From Natrinema caseinilyticum (GTDB taxonomy: Archaea > Halobacteriota > Halobacteria > Halobacteriales > Natrialbaceae), in assembly GCF_024227435.1 (NCBI RefSeq), contig NZ_CP100445.1, positions 2,663,369 through 2,727,368 of the forward strand: a stretch of DNA of 64,000 nt, given 5' to 3'. Shown piece after piece: positions 8,995 through 31,818 of the stretch. A program made the translations under genes and the position numbers. How positions within the stretch are numbered: the stretch's first letter is position 1; the number at the start of each line of letters is the position of its first letter. Below the pieces are notes generated by a model, which had not been told where the DNA came from, did no database searches, and worked only from the letters and a program-made list of their open reading frames with translations.

Positions 8995-11163
8995 TTAATT
9001 AAATTCTCTGTCGAAGGCCAGTGTCACGAGTTTTCGCTCGGCCGCCCGGAGGTGATAGTGATACGTCGGCGCCGACACGTCGAGCGCGTCCGCGAGATCC
9101 TCCCCCGTGGTCTCCCGCGGCCATTCGAAGAACCCGCTGTAGTGGGCCGCCTGCAGTGCTTCGAACTGCTTGTCGGTGAGCTTCTCGGCGAGATAGGTAT
9201 CGAGCTGCCGTGCAGACCGCGTGCGCGTCGTCTCCCGTTTGGCGACCAGGTCCGTTTCTGGATACTCTTCCCTGATCGCTTCGACCAACGATCGCGTTTC
9301 GACCCGCTGTGGGACCTCGAGAACGATCCTCGACGTGCCGCTCTCGGCCGTCGCCATCCGCATCTGCACGTCGTACGTCCGCAGGACGTCGAGAAACGGC
9401 GTCGATACCACCGTCAGCTCGAACAGCGTTTCTTCGTCCCCTTCCGAAACCACCGAGAGCGTCTCGATCGTCGCCCACGACGCCTCGAGCGACGCGAGGT
9501 CTGCCGTCGCCGGTGCGCTGACGAACAGCACGATTCCCTCCTCGCCGCGGTCCACGACGCCCTCGAGCGTTATCTGCTCGGTTCCGGGAAGCTGCTTCGA
9601 GAGTCGATTGAGCAGTAGCCGCGAATCCCCGACGGCGAGTTCGAGTTCGAGCCGGCTGTCCGTGACCATCGCTCGCGTCCGCTCGACCGATCGGATCGCG
9701 TGGCCGATCGTCTCCCCGAGTTCCGCAAGCACCTCGCGCTCCCCCTCGCCCATCGAATCGGCCCCCGAGACGTGGACTACCAGCACGCCGTACCGGCGCT
9801 CGTCGGCGATCAACGGCACACCGAGCACCGTCTGATAGCCGTAGGTCAACGCTTCTTTGCGCCGCGTTTGCCACTTCTCGTCCTCGAGAACGTCCCGAAC
9901 CAGCCCGACCGTTCCCGTGTCGAGGACGTCGCCGACTAGCGAAACCTCCGGCGCACTGGATCCATCCCCGCGGATCCTGTCGATGTAGGCCGCGTCGACT
10001 CCGGCCCACGCGGTCGGCGCCGGCGGATCGTCGTCGCTCGCGGCGATCCAGGCGAAGCGATAGCGGTCCGTCCCGGCCAGGCGTTCGCACACCGTCTCCT
10101 CGATCGCGTCGCGAGTCGACGCCTGCGCGACGCCGTGATTGATCTCTCGAACGATCTCGTTCGTGTGGTTGAGGCGGGTCAACTCCTCGTTCTGTCGTGT
10201 GAGCGTCCGGTCGTGATCGCGAAGCAACTGCTCGCGTTCGGCCCGATCCAGCGCGGCTTCGGTGTTGGCCGCCAGAATGTGTAACAGTTCCGTCATCGTC
10301 TCGTCGAACCCGTCTACGTCTCCGGTTCCGGCGACCAGTACGCCGTGGGTCCCGAGCGGGACGATTAGTTCACTCCGACTCGCCGTCGTCGCCGCTTCGA
10401 CGCCATCGGCGGCTTCGCCGTCCGCTCGAGGGGCCCCTCCTCCCTCGCTGTCCTCGCGCGTCACGTCCTCGTAGTAGGCGCTTTCTCCTTCCGAAAAGAC
10501 CTCCCAGACGAGGCCCTCTCCCCGATCGAACGTCATCTCCGGATCGGCCCGATCCGGGGACTGGCGCGTCGATGCGGCATGCTCGAGCACGCCGGCCGTC
10601 GGCTCGAACGCGTAGGCCGCCGCGACCGCCACGTCGAGAATCTCGCCGGCCGTTTCGACCGCCGACCGATAGATTTCGTCTTTGGTCTCCCCTCTCATCA
10701 GGTCCCGCGTGGTCTCGTGTAGCGTAGTCAGCGTCCGCTCGTAGCGCCGCTCGCTCTCTCGAAGCTCCGTCTCCGTCCGATACTGGGAGACGGCGTTCGT
10801 GATCTGGTTCGCCAGCAGCGCGTACTGCTCCTTCCCCGACCCCTTCTGGAGATACTGCGTCACGCCGGCCGCGATCGCCTCACTGGCGATCTCTTCCGAG
10901 CCGCGTCCCGTAAACAGGATAAACGGGAAATCGGGATCGTCCGCTCGGATCGTCTCGAGTAACTCCAGGCCCGACATCTCCGGCATCTCGTAATCGCTGA
11001 CGATACAATCGACTTCCCGACGCTCGAGTTCCTCGAGCGCTTGCGCGCCGTCCGTCGCCGACACGGTGACGATCGATTCGCGCTCGCGCTCTAACATCTC
11101 ACCGGCGAGGTCGGCGAAATCGGGTTCGTTGTCGACGACGAGTACTGTTATCGGTTGTGACAT
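8995..11163 (-). CDS. Receiver-GAF-Bat-type HTH transcription regulator
   Basis: A 722-residue haloarchaeal regulator. The CheY-like receiver (residues 1-125) has the complete active site: Asp11, phosphoacceptor Asp57 in VSDYEMPEMSG, Thr85 and Lys107. A coiled linker leads to a GAF domain (about 150-300), a second coiled helix (300-345) and a second GAF (about 350-490). A Bat-type sensor segment follows (about 510-650), then the HTH_10 DNA-binding domain at the end (LTDKQFEALQAAHYSGFFEWPRE spans its first helices, about 655-715). It should be phosphorylated by a separate histidine kinase and act on genes in trans; no kinase gene is adjacent. The target is unknown. The gene is alone, with a long 5' region of 245 bases shared with the nuclease gene upstream. 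Confidence 0.92.
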   Translation of the reverse strand: MSQPITVLVVDNEPDFADLAGEMLERERESIVTVSATDGAQALEELERREVDCIVSDYEMPEMSGLELLETIRADDPDFPFILFTGRGSEEIASEAIAAGVTQYLQKGSGKEQYALLANQITNAVSQYRTETELRESERRYERTLTTLHETTRDLMRGETKDEIYRSAVETAGEILDVAVAAAYAFEPTAGVLEHAASTRQSPDRADPEMTFDRGEGLVWEVFSEGESAYYEDVTREDSEGGGAPRADGEAADGVEAATTASRSELIVPLGTHGVLVAGTGDVDGFDETMTELLHILAANTEAALDRAEREQLLRDHDRTLTRQNEELTRLNHTNEIVREINHGVAQASTRDAIEETVCERLAGTDRYRFAWIAASDDDPPAPTAWAGVDAAYIDRIRGDGSSAPEVSLVGDVLDTGTVGLVRDVLEDEKWQTRRKEALTYGYQTVLGVPLIADERRYGVLVVHVSGADSMGEGEREVLAELGETIGHAIRSVERTRAMVTDSRLELELAVGDSRLLLNRLSKQLPGTEQITLEGVVDRGEEGIVLFVSAPATADLASLEASWATIETLSVVSEGDEETLFELTVVSTPFLDVLRTYDVQMRMATAESGTSRIVLEVPQRVETRSLVEAIREEYPETDLVAKRETTRTRSARQLDTYLAEKLTDKQFEALQAAHYSGFFEWPRETTGEDLADALDVSAPTYHYHLRAAERKLVTLAFDREFN

Positions 11164-11408
11164 TGTCCGCTGAACCGGCGAGCGACTGTTCTGGCGACAT
11201 CCGCCTCCCCGATCGCCGGGTTATCTATCGAGGTAACGCGGTGATACTAATATATTAGGATTCAATATCTTCGGTTACTAATTCTTTAATCAAACGCGAT
11301 CGATCCGACGGGATGCTCGAGGACTGGACCGCTGCCTTCGGCAGCGTCTTGCCAGTCGCCACTGGGACTCGGAACGATATCCGCCGATATACTGTAACTC
11401 GAATCCGA

Positions 11409-21674: not shown

Positions 21675-22283
21675 ATGGCTGCAGAAGACCAACCGGACCC
21701 GGATGCGCCAGCGGGCGGTGCGGACGTATCGGCGAAGCTCTTCGGCACGTGGGATATCGACGAAATCGAGTACGCCGACCCATCGACGGAGCGTTACATC
21801 ACCGTAACTCCGGTCGCACACACCGCGGGTCGCCACGCCAGCAAACAGTTCAAGAAGTCCCAGGTCTCGATCGTCGAGCGTTTCATCAACCGGTTGATGC
21901 AGACCGAAGAGAACACGGGCAAAAAACAGCAGTCGCTCAACTACGTCCGTGATGCGTTCGAGCTCATCCACGACCGCACAGAGGAAAACCCCATCCAGAT
22001 TCTCGTCACGGCCGTGGAGAACGCGGCACCGCGAGAAGAGACCGTCCGGCTCAAGTACGGTGGCATCTCGGTTCCGAAGGCCGTCGACGTCGCCCCGCAG
22101 CGGCGCGTCGATCAGGCGCTGAAATTCCTCGCCGAAGGCGTTCACAACGACTCGTTCAAGACGGCGACGACCGTCGAGGAGGCGATCGCCAGCCAACTCG
22201 TCGGCGCGGCCAACTACGACGTCCAAACCTACGCCGTCAGTCAGAAAGAAGAAAAAGAGCGCGTCGCGGCTGCCGCACGCTAA
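21675..22283 (+). CDS. rps7: 30S ribosomal protein S7
   Basis: A 202-residue uS7, which organises the head of the small subunit. An acidic N-terminal extension (about 17 residues, typical of haloarchaea) precedes LFGTWDIDEIEYADPS. The NVRDAFELI-type block reads YVRDAFELIHDRTEENP, followed by VPKAVDVAPQRRVDQALKFL. Translation is coupled to rps12. In many archaea EF-2 comes next, but here four accessory or minor genes intervene. Confidence 0.97.
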   Translation: MAAEDQPDPDAPAGGADVSAKLFGTWDIDEIEYADPSTERYITVTPVAHTAGRHASKQFKKSQVSIVERFINRLMQTEENTGKKQQSLNYVRDAFELIHDRTEENPIQILVTAVENAAPREETVRLKYGGISVPKAVDVAPQRRVDQALKFLAEGVHNDSFKTATTVEEAIASQLVGAANYDVQTYAVSQKEEKERVAAAAR

Positions 22284-22656: not shown

Positions 22657-24735
22657 CTACGACTCCGACGGTCGGATATCCTCGCTCCACTGGAGCGATC
22701 CGTCGAGTAGAACGGGGAATTGACCCTGGTCGAAAAACTCCTCGAGTTGCGATGCCGACACCGAAAGTCGTCCGGTCGCTCGGGGCAGGACGTAGTACGA
22801 CGTGACCGGGTCGAGATACGGCGAAAAGAGACAGCCTCGTTTGATCTCCGCCGACGTATACATGCGTACGTCTGCAGCGATACTGTTCCCGTTTCGGGTA
22901 ACGATACACGCGTTCGGTATTCCGGTTTCGGATTGCGCTATCGTCGTTCGCCCGTCACCAACCATGACGTATTGCTGGCCCACGACGCTGTCTTGGCGAG
23001 CGATATCCAGTGCAGCGTAGAGCGGGAAACCGAGGTTGAGCAATCGAGCGATCGTACTGCCGATTCCGACTGCGCCACTGTTTGCGACGTTTCCGAGCGT
23101 CACGATTCCACCGATGCTTCCAGCGGCGACGAGGGCCAGTCCCTGATCGTGCGACTGACACGCGTTTAGCAAGAACGCCTTCGCACCGACGGAATCGACC
23201 GTCGCGGCGTCCAGTTTCCCGTCCGAACACTGAAATCCGGCGTCGTCGATGTGGCCGATATAGTGCAGAAAGTCGCTCTCGATCGCCAGCACGTCCGCGA
23301 GTTCGGCCCGTGTGAGGTCGTAGTGGTCCGTGATTTCGAAGGGCAACTCCTCGCGAGTTCCGTACGTCCCGTTGACGCTCTCGAGTTCCGTGCGCATATC
23401 CGAATCGTTACAGATACATTCGATTTCGATCGGGCCGTCCTTCGGCGTCCGGCCCACGTTGTTTTCGTACGCCCCGAGCGGGGTGGTGCTGACGATCTCC
23501 GAGTCGTCGATACCGGTCCAGACTTGCTGCAGGGTGGACAACTGGAGCCGATCCGTCGATGGGGTGGCGGTCTCGGTACCGCGACCAGTTCGTGTCCGAA
23601 CGCGGGTGACAGGATCGCTCCGAGTGAACGATTCGATCGCCCGTTCGACGCGTGATTCCTGCGATGACGGATCCGTTTCGCTCGCTTCGGTCCTGACGAT
23701 CGCGAGGTCGTTGGCGATAAACGGGAGGAATCTGATCGTCTCGGCGGTCGGCTCGAGTCTCGTCTCGAACCCCCAGTCTGGAAGATGCGGTTCCACCGCG
23801 GAGTACGGCGTCTCTAGATATGTTTCGAGTCGCTCGGCGAGACACTGGTCGTACGCGGTCGCGATGTCGAACGGGAGGGCCGGTTCGACCACCTGCCGCT
23901 CGTACAGTTCGAGCGGGGTCTTGCCCTCGGTCCGAACGACGCAATCGAGAAAGAACACCTGACGCAACGCGCGCCTCACCGACGATCCGAACCCGTCCGC
24001 GGTATCGAGCGCGTAGGTGTACCCGCGGTCGGTGACGATCTCGGGTCTCGATCCGGGACCGACGCTGGCACCGAGATAGTACGCGAGTGGCGCGACGACG
24101 AACACGTGACGGAGCGTGTCCGGGACGGCTATCCGAACGCCGTGGTCGGCCCGGTCGAACTCGTCGGGGACGTGTAATTCGCTTCCGAGTTCGAGGCGTG
24201 GCGGATGGCCTCGGAGTGTCGAGTAGGACCGCTCGGGCGTTGTCGTCTTCAGTTCCTGTCCAAAGATGGACACCGCCGCCATCACATCGGCGGGGTCTGC
24301 CGTCGTCGTGATCGTCCCGGCCGGCCGTTCGTGAAACGATCGTGCCCCGAGGATCACATCCGTCTCCCCGTCGAACGCGACGTACGTGCGGTCGGCATCC
24401 GAAAAGATACGCAATGCACTTTCGATACGGGCGTATATCTTCATGGGGCCCGATAGATCTAGCGTGTACTCGGCAGGCCGAAACGCTACCCGTTCGGTCG
24501 GGGGTACCTCGGCGATCATCATCCCGTCGGCGTCGCGGACGATGATGCTCTCGGTCGCCGGTAATTCGATCGACCGTGCGGTAAACCGTACGACCGATCC
24601 GGTCGGGAATCCGATCTGATCGGTGTCAGCCGACTCGAGCGAGATCGACTCGCCAACCGTCAACTGATACCGGTGCCGTTCGATCGGATCGATAATCTCG
24701 ACTCCCGTTCTGCTGGGCTCGAATTTCGGCTTCAT
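22657..24735 (-). CDS. Caspase-like (CHAT-type) protease-domain protein
   Basis: A 692-residue protein with a C-terminal clan-CD peptidase signature. His495 lies in HYIGH and Cys526 in LNACQS, spaced 31 residues apart, with the hydrophobic strand AKAFLL before the Cys and a GGIVTLGNV strand after it: the His-Cys dyad of CHAT/caspase-like domains. The first 400 residues are an uncharacterised beta-rich region with no recognisable motif; there is no signal peptide or membrane helix, so it should be cytosolic. The start at 24735 (MKPKF) leaves 89 bases to the upstream gene; a longer form from 24849 would overlap it by 25 bases. It probably forms an operon with that gene. Substrate and trigger are unknown. 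Confidence 0.75.
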   Translation of the reverse strand: MKPKFEPSRTGVEIIDPIERHRYQLTVGESISLESADTDQIGFPTGSVVRFTARSIELPATESIIVRDADGMMIAEVPPTERVAFRPAEYTLDLSGPMKIYARIESALRIFSDADRTYVAFDGETDVILGARSFHERPAGTITTTADPADVMAAVSIFGQELKTTTPERSYSTLRGHPPRLELGSELHVPDEFDRADHGVRIAVPDTLRHVFVVAPLAYYLGASVGPGSRPEIVTDRGYTYALDTADGFGSSVRRALRQVFFLDCVVRTEGKTPLELYERQVVEPALPFDIATAYDQCLAERLETYLETPYSAVEPHLPDWGFETRLEPTAETIRFLPFIANDLAIVRTEASETDPSSQESRVERAIESFTRSDPVTRVRTRTGRGTETATPSTDRLQLSTLQQVWTGIDDSEIVSTTPLGAYENNVGRTPKDGPIEIECICNDSDMRTELESVNGTYGTREELPFEITDHYDLTRAELADVLAIESDFLHYIGHIDDAGFQCSDGKLDAATVDSVGAKAFLLNACQSHDQGLALVAAGSIGGIVTLGNVANSGAVGIGSTIARLLNLGFPLYAALDIARQDSVVGQQYVMVGDGRTTIAQSETGIPNACIVTRNGNSIAADVRMYTSAEIKRGCLFSPYLDPVTSYYVLPRATGRLSVSASQLEEFFDQGQFPVLLDGSLQWSEDIRPSES

Positions 24736-24824
24736 TGAAACTGACGATCGGGTGGTGTGGCGTTCGTTGGACCGTTCCGTCGTGAGTCGCCGAATCTGAA
24801 CGCGACGGACGGACCGCGGGGCCG

Positions 24825-25523
24825 CTATTTCGTCGTCACCGAGAGCCACCCGGACGAGTGTGCTCCATCATCTAGCATCCATCGTTCCTGGTACTCCCCG
24901 TGCTGTTCTCGAAGTTCGACGATCACGTCGAACAGCGGCGAAAGCACCGGGACGATTCTGGCAGTCGGTTCCACTGGAAGGTGATAGTGAGCCATCCCGC
25001 AGACGTCTCGCGTTCGTCCGTTGGTCAGGTGGAGAAACTTGAAGATCCGTTGTCTCCCGTACTCTTCGAGCAGCGGAAGCACCGAGTCGACGCCGACTCT
25101 GAGTTCCGCGGGCTCGAGTCCGTTCGCGTCGTGTTCGAAGGAGTCGATCGCATTCGAGAGAGCCAGGCCGAGGTCCGCCAGCGCGTCGACTTCGGTCGGC
25201 GACGACGAGATGGACGAACCGGGTGTCGAACGACTCGCGGCGGTGGTGCGTGCCTGGGCGTCGTAGCTGATCATCGAGAGCGTCTCCGAGTCGGCATCGC
25301 CGGCGAGTTTCGAGAGCTGGTTCGTCTCGCTGGTCGTCGAGATGAGAACGCGACGGCGGGCCTTTTCCGCTCCCTGCCCCAGGAGCCGCCTGCAGGTGTC
25401 TCGTCGATGGTCGGGTCGGACGGAGCCGACGACGAGGATGCTCGCCCCGTGGCGCTTTAACCGCGATAGCTCGTCGGAGAAGCCGTCTTCGCTCGTCTCC
25501 GCACGGCCCTGTCCCGCGATCAT
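24825..25523 (-). CDS. Uncharacterised haloarchaeal protein, partner of the CHAT-type protein
   Basis: A 232-residue protein. It opens with a Rossmann/RecA-like pattern (ASILVVGSVRPDHRRDTCRRLLGQG, then ARRRVLISTT) but lacks a Walker A lysine, so it looks like a degenerate P-loop fold. I recall this shape from the DUF7504 family of haloarchaea, not confirmed. The C-terminal part (LRVGVDSVLPLLEEYG, then VCGMAHYHLPVE) is the family-like end. The start at 25523 is preferred to 25559 because a TATA-like tttattg at about 25557-25563 would lie over the longer start. It sits directly upstream of the CHAT-type gene on the same strand, which suggests a functional pair. Confidence 0.65.
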   Translation of the reverse strand: MIAGQGRAETSEDGFSDELSRLKRHGASILVVGSVRPDHRRDTCRRLLGQGAEKARRRVLISTTSETNQLSKLAGDADSETLSMISYDAQARTTAASRSTPGSSISSSPTEVDALADLGLALSNAIDSFEHDANGLEPAELRVGVDSVLPLLEEYGRQRIFKFLHLTNGRTRDVCGMAHYHLPVEPTARIVPVLSPLFDVIVELREQHGEYQERWMLDDGAHSSGWLSVTTK

Positions 25524-25548
25524 TACTGGTATGTTACAGACAGTAATG
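25521..25548. promoter_or_regulatory. 8-bp inverted repeat across the start of the CHAT-type operon
   Basis: The arms cattactg (25521-25528) and cagtaatg (25541-25548) are exact reverse complements with a 12-base spacer. They lie between the TATA-like box (about 25557-25565) and the start codon and include the start codon itself, a position suited to an operator. Confidence 0.45.
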
Positions 25549-25670
25549 CCCTCAAACAATAAATGTTAGGGTCGAAGCGGCGCGTTTTCCGTTCCGGACG
25601 CGGCTGTCGTCGGACCGGGGTTCGGACGGATTTGTCCGGTGAATCGAAACACCGAGACCGCTCGTCGCCG

Positions 25671-26547: not shown

Positions 26548-28436
26548 TCAGGCCGTTCCCACGCCGCCGAGGGCGTTGTTCTGATAGGTGACGGCCGTCG
26601 TCGTCACGTTGCTCGCGCTGGTGTAGAGGCCGTATCCGGCACCGTTGCGAATCGTGGCGTTCTCGACGAGCAGGCGTGAGCCGATGTACGCCGTCACGTT
26701 CGCCGGTTCGACCCGGTGGTTGAAGCGCTCCGTTCCGGCGTGCTCGACGACCACGTAGACGAGTCGATTCTCGACGCGGTCGCTCTCGCGGTAGGAGAGC
26801 CCTCGCCAGAAGCCGGCCGTCTTCTGTTCGCCGGTGAACGTGATCGGCGCGTCGGCCGTCCCCGTCGCGTCGAGGCTGCCGGTCGACCAGACTTCCAGTC
26901 CCGCGTTGCTCTCGAAACTCACCGTCGCACCGGCCTCGATAGCGAGGTCGCCCTGGACCTCGAGTTCGCCGTCGACGACGTATCGCGCGTCGACGGCCTG
27001 CCACGTGACGGTCGATCCCGCTTCGATACCGCTGCTCGTGGGAACGACGTCGATCCGGTCGTCGTCGTTGCCGGTGTACGTACTCGTGTCCGGGAAGAAG
27101 TGCGAACTCGGACTCCGGACCCAGGCGGCCCCGTCCGTGTTCTTCGTGACGGTGTTGGTGTGGAACGAACCGATCGTCTCGTTCGAACTGAAACAGACCC
27201 CGTAGCCGCCGCCTTCGCGGACGGTCGAACTGTCGACGCTGAGTCGCGAGCCCGAACGGACCGTGACGTTGGCGGCGACGGTGCTGTGGTGGAACGACTC
27301 CGAGCCGCCGTATTCGACGACCGCGTGGCCGAGCCGGTTCTCGGTGCGGTCGGTATCCTGAAACTGGAGTCCGCGCCAGTAGCCGCGAGTCTCTGTTCGC
27401 CGGTGAACGTGATGGGGGCCACCGACTCGTCTTCGGTCATCCCGACGGCGGTGGGACTCCCGCCGTTTCGCGTGTCGAGGCCCGCGTTTCGCTGGAAACT
27501 GACGGTCGCGTTGGGAGCAACGGTGAGGCGGCCGTAGTTGTCCGTCACGCCGGTCAACACGTAGCGGGCGTCGGTGACGCCCCGCTCCACGTCCGCCGAG
27601 TCGGGGATGCCGCCGGACGTCGGCGTCACGCGAACCCGGTCGTCGTCGTTGCCGGTGTACTGGCTTTCGGCCGCGAAGTGGTGGGCGCTCTGATCGCGAC
27701 AGGCCGCGGTCGTCTCGTTTGCGGTGACGAGACACCGATCGAACGCGTCCAGGACCGCATCGTACCGGAGAGAGATACCCGCGCCCGCGTTCTCGCGGAT
27801 CGTACACCGCTCGACGGTGGCTCGAGCGTCGAGCAACTCGACGCCCGCCTTCCGAACGCTGTGGTGGCTCCGGTTCGCACCCGCGTACTCGACGATGACG
27901 TGGCGCAGTTTGTTGTCGAGACTGTTCGACCCGTAGAAGACCAGTCCGCCCCAGTACCCCCGCGTCTTCTGCTCGCCGGTCATCCGGATCGGGGCCTCGC
28001 AGGTCCCCTGGGCGGTCAGACTCGAGCCCTCGAGGACCTGCAGGGACGCGCCGCTCGCGAACGTGACCGTCGTTCCCGGCCGGATCGTCAGGGTCGCGCC
28101 GTCGCTGACCCAGATCTCGGTGGTCACGTGGTAGTTCGAACATTCGTCGCCCCACACCGTATCGCTCGAGAGGCTGGCCGAGACCTCGGTACCGTCGCAG
28201 TTCGGATCGGGAGCGGCCGGCTGGCACGCCCCGTAGGACGGCTGATCGCCGCCGGGATCGGCCGAATCGTCCGCATCCGGGTCGGCCCCGGGGTCGCTCG
28301 ACTCACCCGGTTCCGGTTCTCCCTCGGGCGACGAGAGAGCGAGTTCCGAACAGCCGGCGATGGCGCCGGTGATCGATGCAGTGCCGAGCGCTCGCAAGAG
28401 CGCTCGACGATTGGTGGGATCGTCCGTTCCTGTCAT
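26548..28436 (-). pseudogene. Beta-helix repeat lipoprotein, interrupted by a single-base frameshift
   Basis: Two overlapping reading frames together make one protein of about 629 residues. The first starts at 28436 with a Tat-type signal (NRRALLRALG) and a lipobox ending AGC (Cys29), followed by an acidic Pro/Asp/Gly linker, so the product should be anchored outside the membrane. Three units of about 170 residues follow, each with the pattern FTGEQKT-GYWRGL, a VVEY/HAG strand and TGNDDDR, as in right-handed beta-helix proteins. In unit 2 the run cttctg of units 1 and 3 is shortened to ctctg at about 27390-27395 (one base missing), which shifts the frame; the sense continues in the second frame to 26548. 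It is either a genuine pseudogene or an assembly error. No function is assigned. Confidence 0.85.
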
Positions 28437-28864: not shown

Positions 28865-31051
28865 ATGGGCCGACGCAAGAAAATCGTCCAAGAGTGTGAA
28901 CGGCTGATGGACGAACCGGAGAACATCCGGAACATCGCCATCGCCGCTCACGTCGACCACGGAAAAACGACACTTTCTGACAATCTTCTCGCCGGTGCGG
29001 GCATGATCTCCGACGAGACCGCCGGGGAACAGCTCGCGATGGACACCGAAGAAGACGAGCAGGAACGCGGGATCACCATCGACGCGGCGAACGTCTCGAT
29101 GACTCACGAGTACGAGGAGACCAATCACCTCATCAACCTCATCGACACGCCCGGTCACGTCGACTTCGGTGGCGACGTCACGCGAGCGATGCGCGCCGTC
29201 GACGGTGCGCTCGTGGTCGTCGACGCCGTCGAAGGGGCGATGCCCCAGACCGAGACGGTGCTTCGGCAGGCGCTTCGCGAGGGCGTCAAGCCGACCCTGT
29301 TCATCAACAAGGTCGACCGCCTCATTTCGGAACTGCAGGAAGGTCCCCAGGAGATGCAGGAGCGACTGCTCTCGGTCATCCGCGACGTCAACGAACTCAT
29401 CCGCGGCATGACCGAGGACATGGACGACATCGACGACTGGACGGTCTCCGTCGAAGACGGCACCGTCGGCTTCGGGTCCGCCCTCTACAAGTGGGGCGTC
29501 TCGATGCCGTCGATGCAGCGCACCGGCATGGACTTCGGCGACATCATGGAGATGGAGCGCAACGACCAGCGCCAGGAACTCCACGAGCGCACGCCGCTGT
29601 CGGACGTCGTCCTCGACATGGTCTGTGAGCACTTCCCGAACCCGGTCGACGCCCAGCCCCGCCGTATCCCGCGGATCTGGCGCGGCGACGACGAGTCCGA
29701 CCTCGCCGAGTCCATGCGTCTCGTCAATGAGGACGGCGAGGTCGTCTTCATGGTCACCGACATCTCGATGGACCCCCACGCCGGCGAAATCGCCTCCGGT
29801 CGCGTCTTCTCGGGCACCCTGGAGAAGGGCCAGGAACTCTACGTCTCCGGGACCGCGGGCAAGAACCGCGTTCAGTCCGTCGGCATCTACATGGGCGGCG
29901 AGCGCGAGGAAGTCGACGAAGTTCCCGCCGGGAACATCGCGGCCGTCACCGGCCTCAGAGACGCCATCGCCGGCTCGACCGTCTCGAGCGTCGAGATGAC
30001 GCCGTTCGAGTCGATCGAACACATCTCGGAACCGGTCATCACCAAGAGCGTGGAGGCCCAGAGCATGGACGACCTGCCGAAGCTCATCGAGACCCTTCGA
30101 CAGGTATCCAAGGAGGACCCCACCATCCAGATCACGATCAACGAGGACACCGGCGAACACCTGATCTCCGGGCAGGGCGAACTCCACCTCGAGGTCATCA
30201 CCCAGCGGATCGAGAAGAACCAGGGCATTCCGGTCAACACCGGCGAACCGATCGTCGTCTTCCGTGAGGCGCCCCAGGAGCCCAGCGATCAGGTCGAGGG
30301 CATCTCCCCGAACCGCCACAACCGCTTCTACATCTCCGTCGAGCCGATGACGGACGAGCTCGTCGACACGGTTAAGAAGGGCGAGGCGTCGATGGACATG
30401 CCCGAGCAGGAACGCCGAGAAGCCCTGCAGGACGCCGGCATGGACAAAGACGACTCCCAGAACGTCGAGCACATCCACGGCTCGAACATCCTGCTGGATC
30501 AGACGAAGGGTATCCAGCACTTGAACGAGACGATGGAGTTGTTCATCGAGGGACTCGAGGAGGCCATCGACAACGGCCCGCTGGCTAACGAGCCAGTGCA
30601 GGGGGCGCTCATCCGCCTGCACGACGCCAAGCTCCACGAGGACACCATCCACCGCGGTCCGGCACAGGTCATCCCGGCGACCCGCGAAGCCGTCCACAAG
30701 GCGCTGATCGACGCGAAGATCAAGATGCTCGAGCCGATGCAGGACGTCCGCATCGACGTGCCCAACGACCACATGGGCGCCGCCTCCGGCGAGATTCAGG
30801 GCCGACGCGGCCGCGTCGACGACATGTACCAGGAAGGCGACCTCATGGTCGTCGAGGGCATCGCGCCCGTCGGCGAGATGATCGGCTTCGCCTCCGACAT
30901 CCGCTCTGCGACCGAGGGGCGGGCCTCCTGGAACACCGAAAACGCCGGCTTCGAGGTCATGTCCGACTCGCTCCAGCGCGAGAAGATCATGGAGATCCGC
31001 GAGCGCAAGGGCATGAAACTCGAGTTGCCGCCGAGCGTCGATTACATATAG
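28865..31051 (+). CDS. fusA: Translation elongation factor EF-2
   Basis: A 728-residue archaeal EF-2, the GTPase that translocates the ribosome. The P-loop AHVDHGKTT is at about residues 28-36, the switch region [10 protein letters not shown] and the G3 motif DTPGHVDF follow, and the G4 motif is NKVDR. The C-terminal domain contains the diphthamide-loop block [11 protein letters not shown], where the His is the site of diphthamide modification (near residue 600). The start at 28865 is the family start ([17 protein letters not shown]). EF-1alpha and S10, which commonly accompany it in the archaeal str cluster, are absent downstream. Confidence 0.97.
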
Positions 31052-31192: not shown

Positions 31193-31426
31193 ATGGCCAA
31201 GATGATCCGCGTTCCCGACGAGTATCACGCGTGGGTGAAAGCCCACAATCGGGACGGAGAGACCATGTTCGAGACGTTACGTCGATTGACTCGAGAGCCA
31301 GACCCGGAAGCCCTTGTAGGGATTCTGTCGTCCGAGGAGGTCGAAGCGGCACGTCAGGCGGCGGAATGCTTCGGTGGACGTGACGAAGAGCGGCTGAAAC
31401 GAGCGCGAGAGGCGTTCGAGGAGTGA
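31193..31426 (+). CDS. VapB-type antitoxin
   Basis: A 77-residue acidic protein (MAKMIRVPDEYHAWVKAHN) with a predicted beta-alpha-alpha DNA-binding start and a charged C-terminal helix (EERLKRAREAFEE), as in VapB antitoxins. The ATG at 31193 lies about 27 bases after a gcttttgac box. The last codon and stop overlap the GTG start of the next gene, so the two are translated together, the classic arrangement of toxin-antitoxin pairs. Confidence 0.82.
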   Translation: MAKMIRVPDEYHAWVKAHNRDGETMFETLRRLTREPDPEALVGILSSEEVEAARQAAECFGGRDEERLKRAREAFEE

Positions 31427-31818
31427 TTCTCGATACATCGTATCTATTCGACCTGATGGACGGAAACCCTGCAGCGATTCAAAAGGGGCACGATCTAACC
31501 GGCCGTGGCGAGGTCCAGTGGCTTCCATCACCGGTCGTCGCCGAAGTGTACTACGGTGTCGCGTATACGAAGAGCGATGACGAACGGCGGCGCGTGCGGA
31601 ACGCGTTGCTTGGATATCCGAGAGTAGACATCGACGAAGAGATTGCTCGCACGGCCAGTATCCTCCTCGCGGAAGCCGATAGGAACGCAGACGGTAACAG
31701 CGGCGTCGAGACGAACGATGCGTACATCGGTGCGGTCGCCGAGGTCATCGACGACGCCGTATTGACCGCGAATCCTGTAGACTTCGAGCAGCTCGGAGTC
31801 GCCGTCGAACTGTACTGA
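31423..31818 (+). CDS. VapC-type PIN-domain toxin
   Basis: A 131-residue PIN-domain ribonuclease. The first acidic residue is Asp4 in MILDTSYLFDL; later conserved residues lie in SPVVAEVYYG (Glu) and the C-terminal NDAYIGAVAEV and TANPVDFEQL regions. VapC toxins cleave tRNA or rRNA and are held inactive by VapB; the target is unknown here. It starts with GTG at 31423, within the antitoxin stop (a 4-base GTGA overlap). Full length and apparently intact, unlike the second PIN gene at 34576. Confidence 0.85.
   Translation: MILDTSYLFDLMDGNPAAIQKGHDLTGRGEVQWLPSPVVAEVYYGVAYTKSDDERRRVRNALLGYPRVDIDEEIARTASILLAEADRNADGNSGVETNDAYIGAVAEVIDDAVLTANPVDFEQLGVAVELY

Follow-up and report, generated by a model that had tools for sequence, protein, structure and literature searches.

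The window, that is, the whole 64,000-nucleotide stretch of Natrinema caseinilyticum DNA (contig NZ_CP100445.1) analysed here, carries two adjacent genes on the minus strand, located exactly as the initial annotation had described them. The upstream gene (24825..25523, ATG at 25523) encodes a member of the DUF7504 family, a partner with KaiC/RecA fold and without Walker A motif, while the downstream gene (22657..24735) encodes a predicted CHAT-like cysteine protease. Although a GTG at 24849 opens the longest open reading frame of the latter, close relatives share the ATG at 24735, a start that gives a protein of 692 amino acids and the His495/Cys526 numbering used previously. The DUF7504 stop codon is separated by 89 nt from this ATG; in other paired loci, 81-214 nt lie between the stop codon of the partner and the start of CHAT homology. 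The HYIGH and LNACQS motifs reported for the protease are present to the letter, with the His495 codon at 23251..23253 and the Cys526 codon at 23158..23160 on the minus strand, and are not a chance occurrence, since the His and the Cys are each retained by 138/139 homologues.

The pair had been described as sitting where rps7 meets EF-2. It is indeed placed between rps7, which ends at 22283, only 370 bp away, and EF-2, which starts near 28865, but the genes for DUF5781 and a beta-helix protein intervene as well. The latter, a lipoprotein-like gene (26548-28436, minus strand), looks frame-broken, as a 505-aa open reading frame becomes Arg/Ser-rich and the repeat carries on in a 559-aa frame. 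Elsewhere in the window, two short adjoining genes (31193-31818, plus strand) resemble by eye a VapB/VapC (PIN-domain) toxin-antitoxin pair, and a long open reading frame (8998-11220, minus strand), approximately 11 kb from the protease gene, contains several stretches matching the receiver-domain profile. In Natrialbaceae, the module is placed between rps7 and DUF5781/EF-2, while in Haloferacaceae it is found near aminotransferase, universal-stress and (by eye) IMP-dehydrogenase-like genes, so that the rps7/EF-2 site is a lineage-specific address. A functional role of the str-cluster position was accordingly discarded, as other families carry the pair elsewhere. The 8-bp inverted repeat noted over the DUF7504 start exists (25521..25548, arms 25521-25528 and 25541-25548, no strand), but four Natrinema relatives do not share it; it was dismissed as an operator or control element and, judged from sequence conservation, is probably due to chance. 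In the same four congeners a TATA-like [CA/CG]TTTATTG element is conserved, which in the window reads CATTTATTG and lies upstream of DUF7504 (25557..25565, minus strand).

The protease escapes recognition by sequence. No family match to the protein was obtained with Pfam, NCBIfam or PADLOC, the CHAT profile PF12770 matches 24/66 relatives (best E-value 7e-5) but not the window protein itself, and a search of solved structures with the single sequence and with the alignment retrieved nothing relevant, so that only the fold search gave matches. An AlphaFold2 model built from a 66-sequence alignment (pLDDT 84, pTM 0.85) has as top Foldseek matches in the PDB the activated SAVED-CHAT filament (8tl0, E 7e-7) and separase (5fby, E 5e-6), followed by the anti-sigma factor DdvA, the gingipain RgpB and TPR-CHAT (7zoq, E 1e-4). 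Upon alignment with VIA, gingipain RgpB scores highest (Z 16.8 over 225 residues, 3.2 A), ahead of separase (Z 14.3) and SAVED-CHAT (Z 13.8). These matches span mainly residues 320-601 and bear on that part of the protein, not on the N-terminus; the catalytic CHAT-like domain assigned by them covers residues 401-601 (22933..23535, minus strand). The predicted structure bears out the caspase/CHAT core around residues 480-560, for which the initial annotation had proposed structure prediction as a check. By its model, the 692-residue protein has a CHAT/separase/gingipain fold with a His495/Cys526 dyad. Like the dyad, Asn524 and Ser528 are retained by 138/139 non-identical relatives each, the dyad and the NxCxS signature being almost invariant even among distant paralogues.

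The upstream partner, in contrast, is readily classified by Pfam, with a score of 192.5 bits against DUF7504 (PF24336; gathering cut-off 27, E 1e-56), while NCBIfam and PADLOC gave no match. Its model (pLDDT 90) matches KaiC (Foldseek E 3e-8, VIA Z 16.9) and also archaeal KaiC-like ATPases such as PH0284. The degenerate P-loop ascribed to the partner is real, as the window copy reads LVVGSVRPDHRRDTC and the Walker A motif GxxxxGK[ST] occurs in 0/42 aligned DUF7504 copies. A DUF7504 paralogue elsewhere in the same genome retains a Walker-A-like GPPLTGKR (locus L144 7731-8363; G000:C1 about 12787). Inactivated KaiC domains (iKaiC, arCOG02452) and their fusions with HalOD1 have been described as signalling proteins of haloarchaea (PMC5847659), and the KaiC fold together with HalOD1 fusions of its own suggests that DUF7504 corresponds to arCOG02452.

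The catalytic domain of the protease is preceded by a linker, residues 352-397 (23545..23682, minus strand), which is predicted to be disordered (pLDDT <50 in the AlphaFold2 model) and is free to vary outside a patch that ends with Arg372 (codon 23620-23622, minus strand), a residue kept in 113/139 rows with 11 gaps. This patch gives rise to a [DE]FxR motif in 77/139 linkers, as compared to a mean of 2.4 and a maximum of 8 upon shuffling, and to a motif density of 1.35 per 100 residues in the linker versus 0.02 elsewhere in the protein. Sites of the form [DE]xxR in flexible stretches are where separase cuts its substrates and also itself. For the linker it is therefore natural to think of self-cleavage or of inhibition by a pseudo-substrate, and by analogy the Arg of [DE]FxR is probably such a self-cleavage or pseudo-substrate site; alternatively, the motif could serve docking instead of cleavage. 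That [DE]FxR is a substrate motif common to response regulators was also considered and rejected, as most matches lie on a helix of HalX in Natrialbaceae, with a further one at a C-terminus in Natronocalculus.

How firmly are the two genes associated? In the scan of GTDB species genomes, 441 CHAT loci were confirmed, of which the best 80 are all haloarchaeal. Among these best 80 loci, 50 have a DUF7504 open reading frame within 6 kb, and in 48 of them it directly precedes CHAT on the same strand; the same adjacency holds for 61/152 near-full CHAT proteins in 15 named genera. The expectation that the two genes co-occur in other haloarchaea thus stands as a conserved operon-like pair with DUF7504 directly upstream, but fails in its strict form, as an adjacent DUF7504 is absent from 82/139 non-identical CHAT proteins, which makes the partner dispensable for many paralogues, and as five genomes encode DUF7504 without any CHAT match. 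The two other CHAT proteins of the window genome are themselves solo. On a FastTree phylogeny, the paired/solo label requires 13 changes compared to 44 expected on shuffling, indicating that pairing follows lineage, but has been gained or lost repeatedly. CHAT and DUF7504 are consequently in frequent, but not obligate association, and as the loci are related by descent, the counts of pairs, and of the receiver genes considered below, overstate the number of independent events. On a Halorussus plasmid, an IS5-like transposase gene is located between DUF7504 and CHAT (locus L205 4085-4900).

A third component connects the pair with signal transduction. A receiver-domain open reading frame is located within 1.5 kb downstream of CHAT in 33/84 loci, compared to 1/81 in the following bin and 0/76 in the one after that, although these represent only about five independent cases once shared descent is counted. 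According to Pfam, the neighbours in Haloferax and Halobellus are receiver-HalX proteins, those in Natronorubrum/Haloterrigena combine HalX with a weakened receiver, Haloarcula has receiver-PAS proteins, and receiver-histidine kinases are found in Halorussus and in one genome of Natrialbaceae. As the window genome possesses only five HalX genes, HalX neighbours would rarely arise by chance. The receiver gene is convergent in Haloferacaceae and Natronorubrum, and on the same strand in Haloarcula, where DUF7504 is missing. A rearranged Natronocalculus locus (L139 4437-8070) retains all three genes, with DUF7504 divergent and the HalX regulator directly before CHAT on one strand; the C-terminus of this regulator reads EFTR, which resembles the motif of the CHAT linker. 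HalOD1-DUF7504 fusions lie directly upstream of CHAT in three lineages, namely Halostagnicola, Haladaptatus and a Natrialbaceae genome (L201 3552-4937, L149 8485-9780 and L140 4813-5922). The window locus itself has no receiver gene beside CHAT. The regulated protease module proposed by the initial annotation is still putative, but is now backed by its association with signalling genes of the receiver, HalX and HalOD1 types.

At least one CHAT homologue is found in 54/61 relatives sampled, at up to eight places per genome. In a sample of the phylum, the only other carriers are four genomes of a single further family, where a divergent CHAT relative is solo beside dnaG-like genes (loci L180-L183). 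In several Natrialbaceae a second CHAT gene follows the first in tandem, in some cases separated from it by a HalX gene (L065-L078). Two Natrinema paralogues (genomes G021 and G016; L158 6630-8710 and L159 6147-8236) are frame-broken inside the linker, at different points and with each half otherwise open, and may be pseudogenes. Copies on plasmids are mostly annotated as 'hypothetical protein', with one 'caspase family protein' and one 'CHAT domain-containing protein'. Neither a phage record nor a viral contig carries the gene, and a viral origin was rejected on this ground. Within the literature searched, no paper dealt with DUF7504 or with haloarchaeal CHAT proteins. Cumulatively, the protease family is genuine and conserved, has been overlooked, and comes with a signalling partner.

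With respect to function, the reading that we consider somewhat better than even is that of a signal-released clan-CD cysteine protease, for which DUF7504 is the regulatory partner linking it to two-component signalling, with the linker Arg probably as the site of self-cleavage or the pseudo-substrate. The protease, with its His495-Cys526 dyad, would be restrained until a signal arrives; DUF7504, a KaiC fold without the nucleotide-binding loop, would act as adaptor, inhibitor or activator and couple the protease to haloarchaeal two-component signalling; and the protease would possibly mature by self-cleavage at the linker Arg. That the CHAT protein is an active protease controlled by its DUF7504 partner is likely, and activation by a two-component signal with cleavage at the linker Arg is plausible; active proteolysis, Arg specificity, self-processing and physical interaction of the two proteins are what we infer from the models, the alignment and the gene neighbourhoods. 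The more specific scheme, in which receivers would use the inactivated KaiC-like protein as an adaptor for switching a separase-like protease that cleaves itself, and which would represent an undescribed haloarchaeal system, is put forward tentatively.

Other explanations deserve consideration. The CHAT protein could be an effector of defence or cell death which is set free by viral infection or damage of another kind and then attacks proteins of the host, DUF7504 being the sensor or inhibitor, as characterised prokaryotic CHAT proteases serve CRISPR-linked defence (the 8tl0 and 7zoq matches), and the copy number varies among relatives, with copies on plasmids and some broken. On the other hand, nearly all members of a genus carry the gene and its place is the same throughout Natrialbaceae, which is more reminiscent of a resident function; the neighbours are ordinary metabolic and signalling genes instead of a defence island, and PADLOC matches neither the pair nor DUF5781, which makes a role in defence appear rather unlikely. 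To a similarly low degree we expect the protease to be a housekeeping or stress protease acting alone, beside a loosely linked DUF7504 that has signalling work of its own. Solo genes indeed make up the majority of the non-identical set, the two other CHAT genes of the window genome are solo, and DUF7504 is found without CHAT; yet adjacency, order and strand are conserved across several families and different chromosomal sites, and the three-gene set has been retained even in the rearranged locus. A catalytically dead scaffold with caspase fold would be compatible with the fact that no member of the family has a known activity, but would not need the selection that keeps His495, Cys526, Asn524 and Ser528 in 138/139 proteins, and is regarded as highly improbable.

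The CHAT protein can be placed among known systems. With the CHAT proteases (PF12770) SAVED-CHAT (8tl0) and TPR-CHAT/Csx29 (7zoq, 7y84) it has in common a caspase-like fold, a His/Cys dyad and a large regulatory N-terminus, and the partner-switched logic of these proteins would extend to it. In contrast to them, it lacks a TPR or SAVED domain by Pfam and among the family matches, no CRISPR genes are among the neighbours read, and its partner is an inactive KaiC-like protein. With separase (5fby, 5fc2, 7nj1; VIA Z 13-14), the [DE]FxR in the disordered linker recalls the [DE]xxR sites, but the window protein is archaeal, comprises about 690 aa and has no cohesin or securin context. The resemblance to RgpB and Kgp (1cvr, 4rbm), clan CD Arg/Lys proteases with the highest VIA Z, aligned over residues 319-636, is one of fold only, as gingipains are secreted and have Ig-like tails. 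The partner, a Pfam DUF7504 member, shows the HalOD1 fusions described for iKaiC (arCOG02452) in a study that lists HalOD1-iKaiC proteins within the haloarchaeal signalling network, but contains no link to a CHAT protease, with 0 occurrences of CHAT or caspase (PMC5847659). New here are the receiver gene flanking CHAT, the HalOD1-fused partners and the conserved [DE]FxR in a disordered linker.

It has been stated that archaeal genomes contain no clear homologues of caspases, and an orphan caspase-like activity of Haloferax volcanii, for which no gene homologue was named, cuts after Asp, with LEVD as the best substrate (PMC3615174). Among the genomes scanned, other Haloferax species carry the CHAT family. 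It is tempting to see in this family the source of the orphan activity, but the specificity argues against it, as the separase and gingipain relatives of CHAT cut after basic residues.

A CHAT/separase-fold family in 54/61 relatives sampled provides concrete candidate genes for regulated proteolysis in archaea. HalX, HalOD1 and iKaiC are abundant haloarchaeal signalling domains whose outputs have been described as uncharacterised (PMC5847659), and the CHAT protein is a possible effector for them. If true, the route from receiver via KaiC-like adaptor to protease would constitute a proteolytic output for archaeal phosphorelays.
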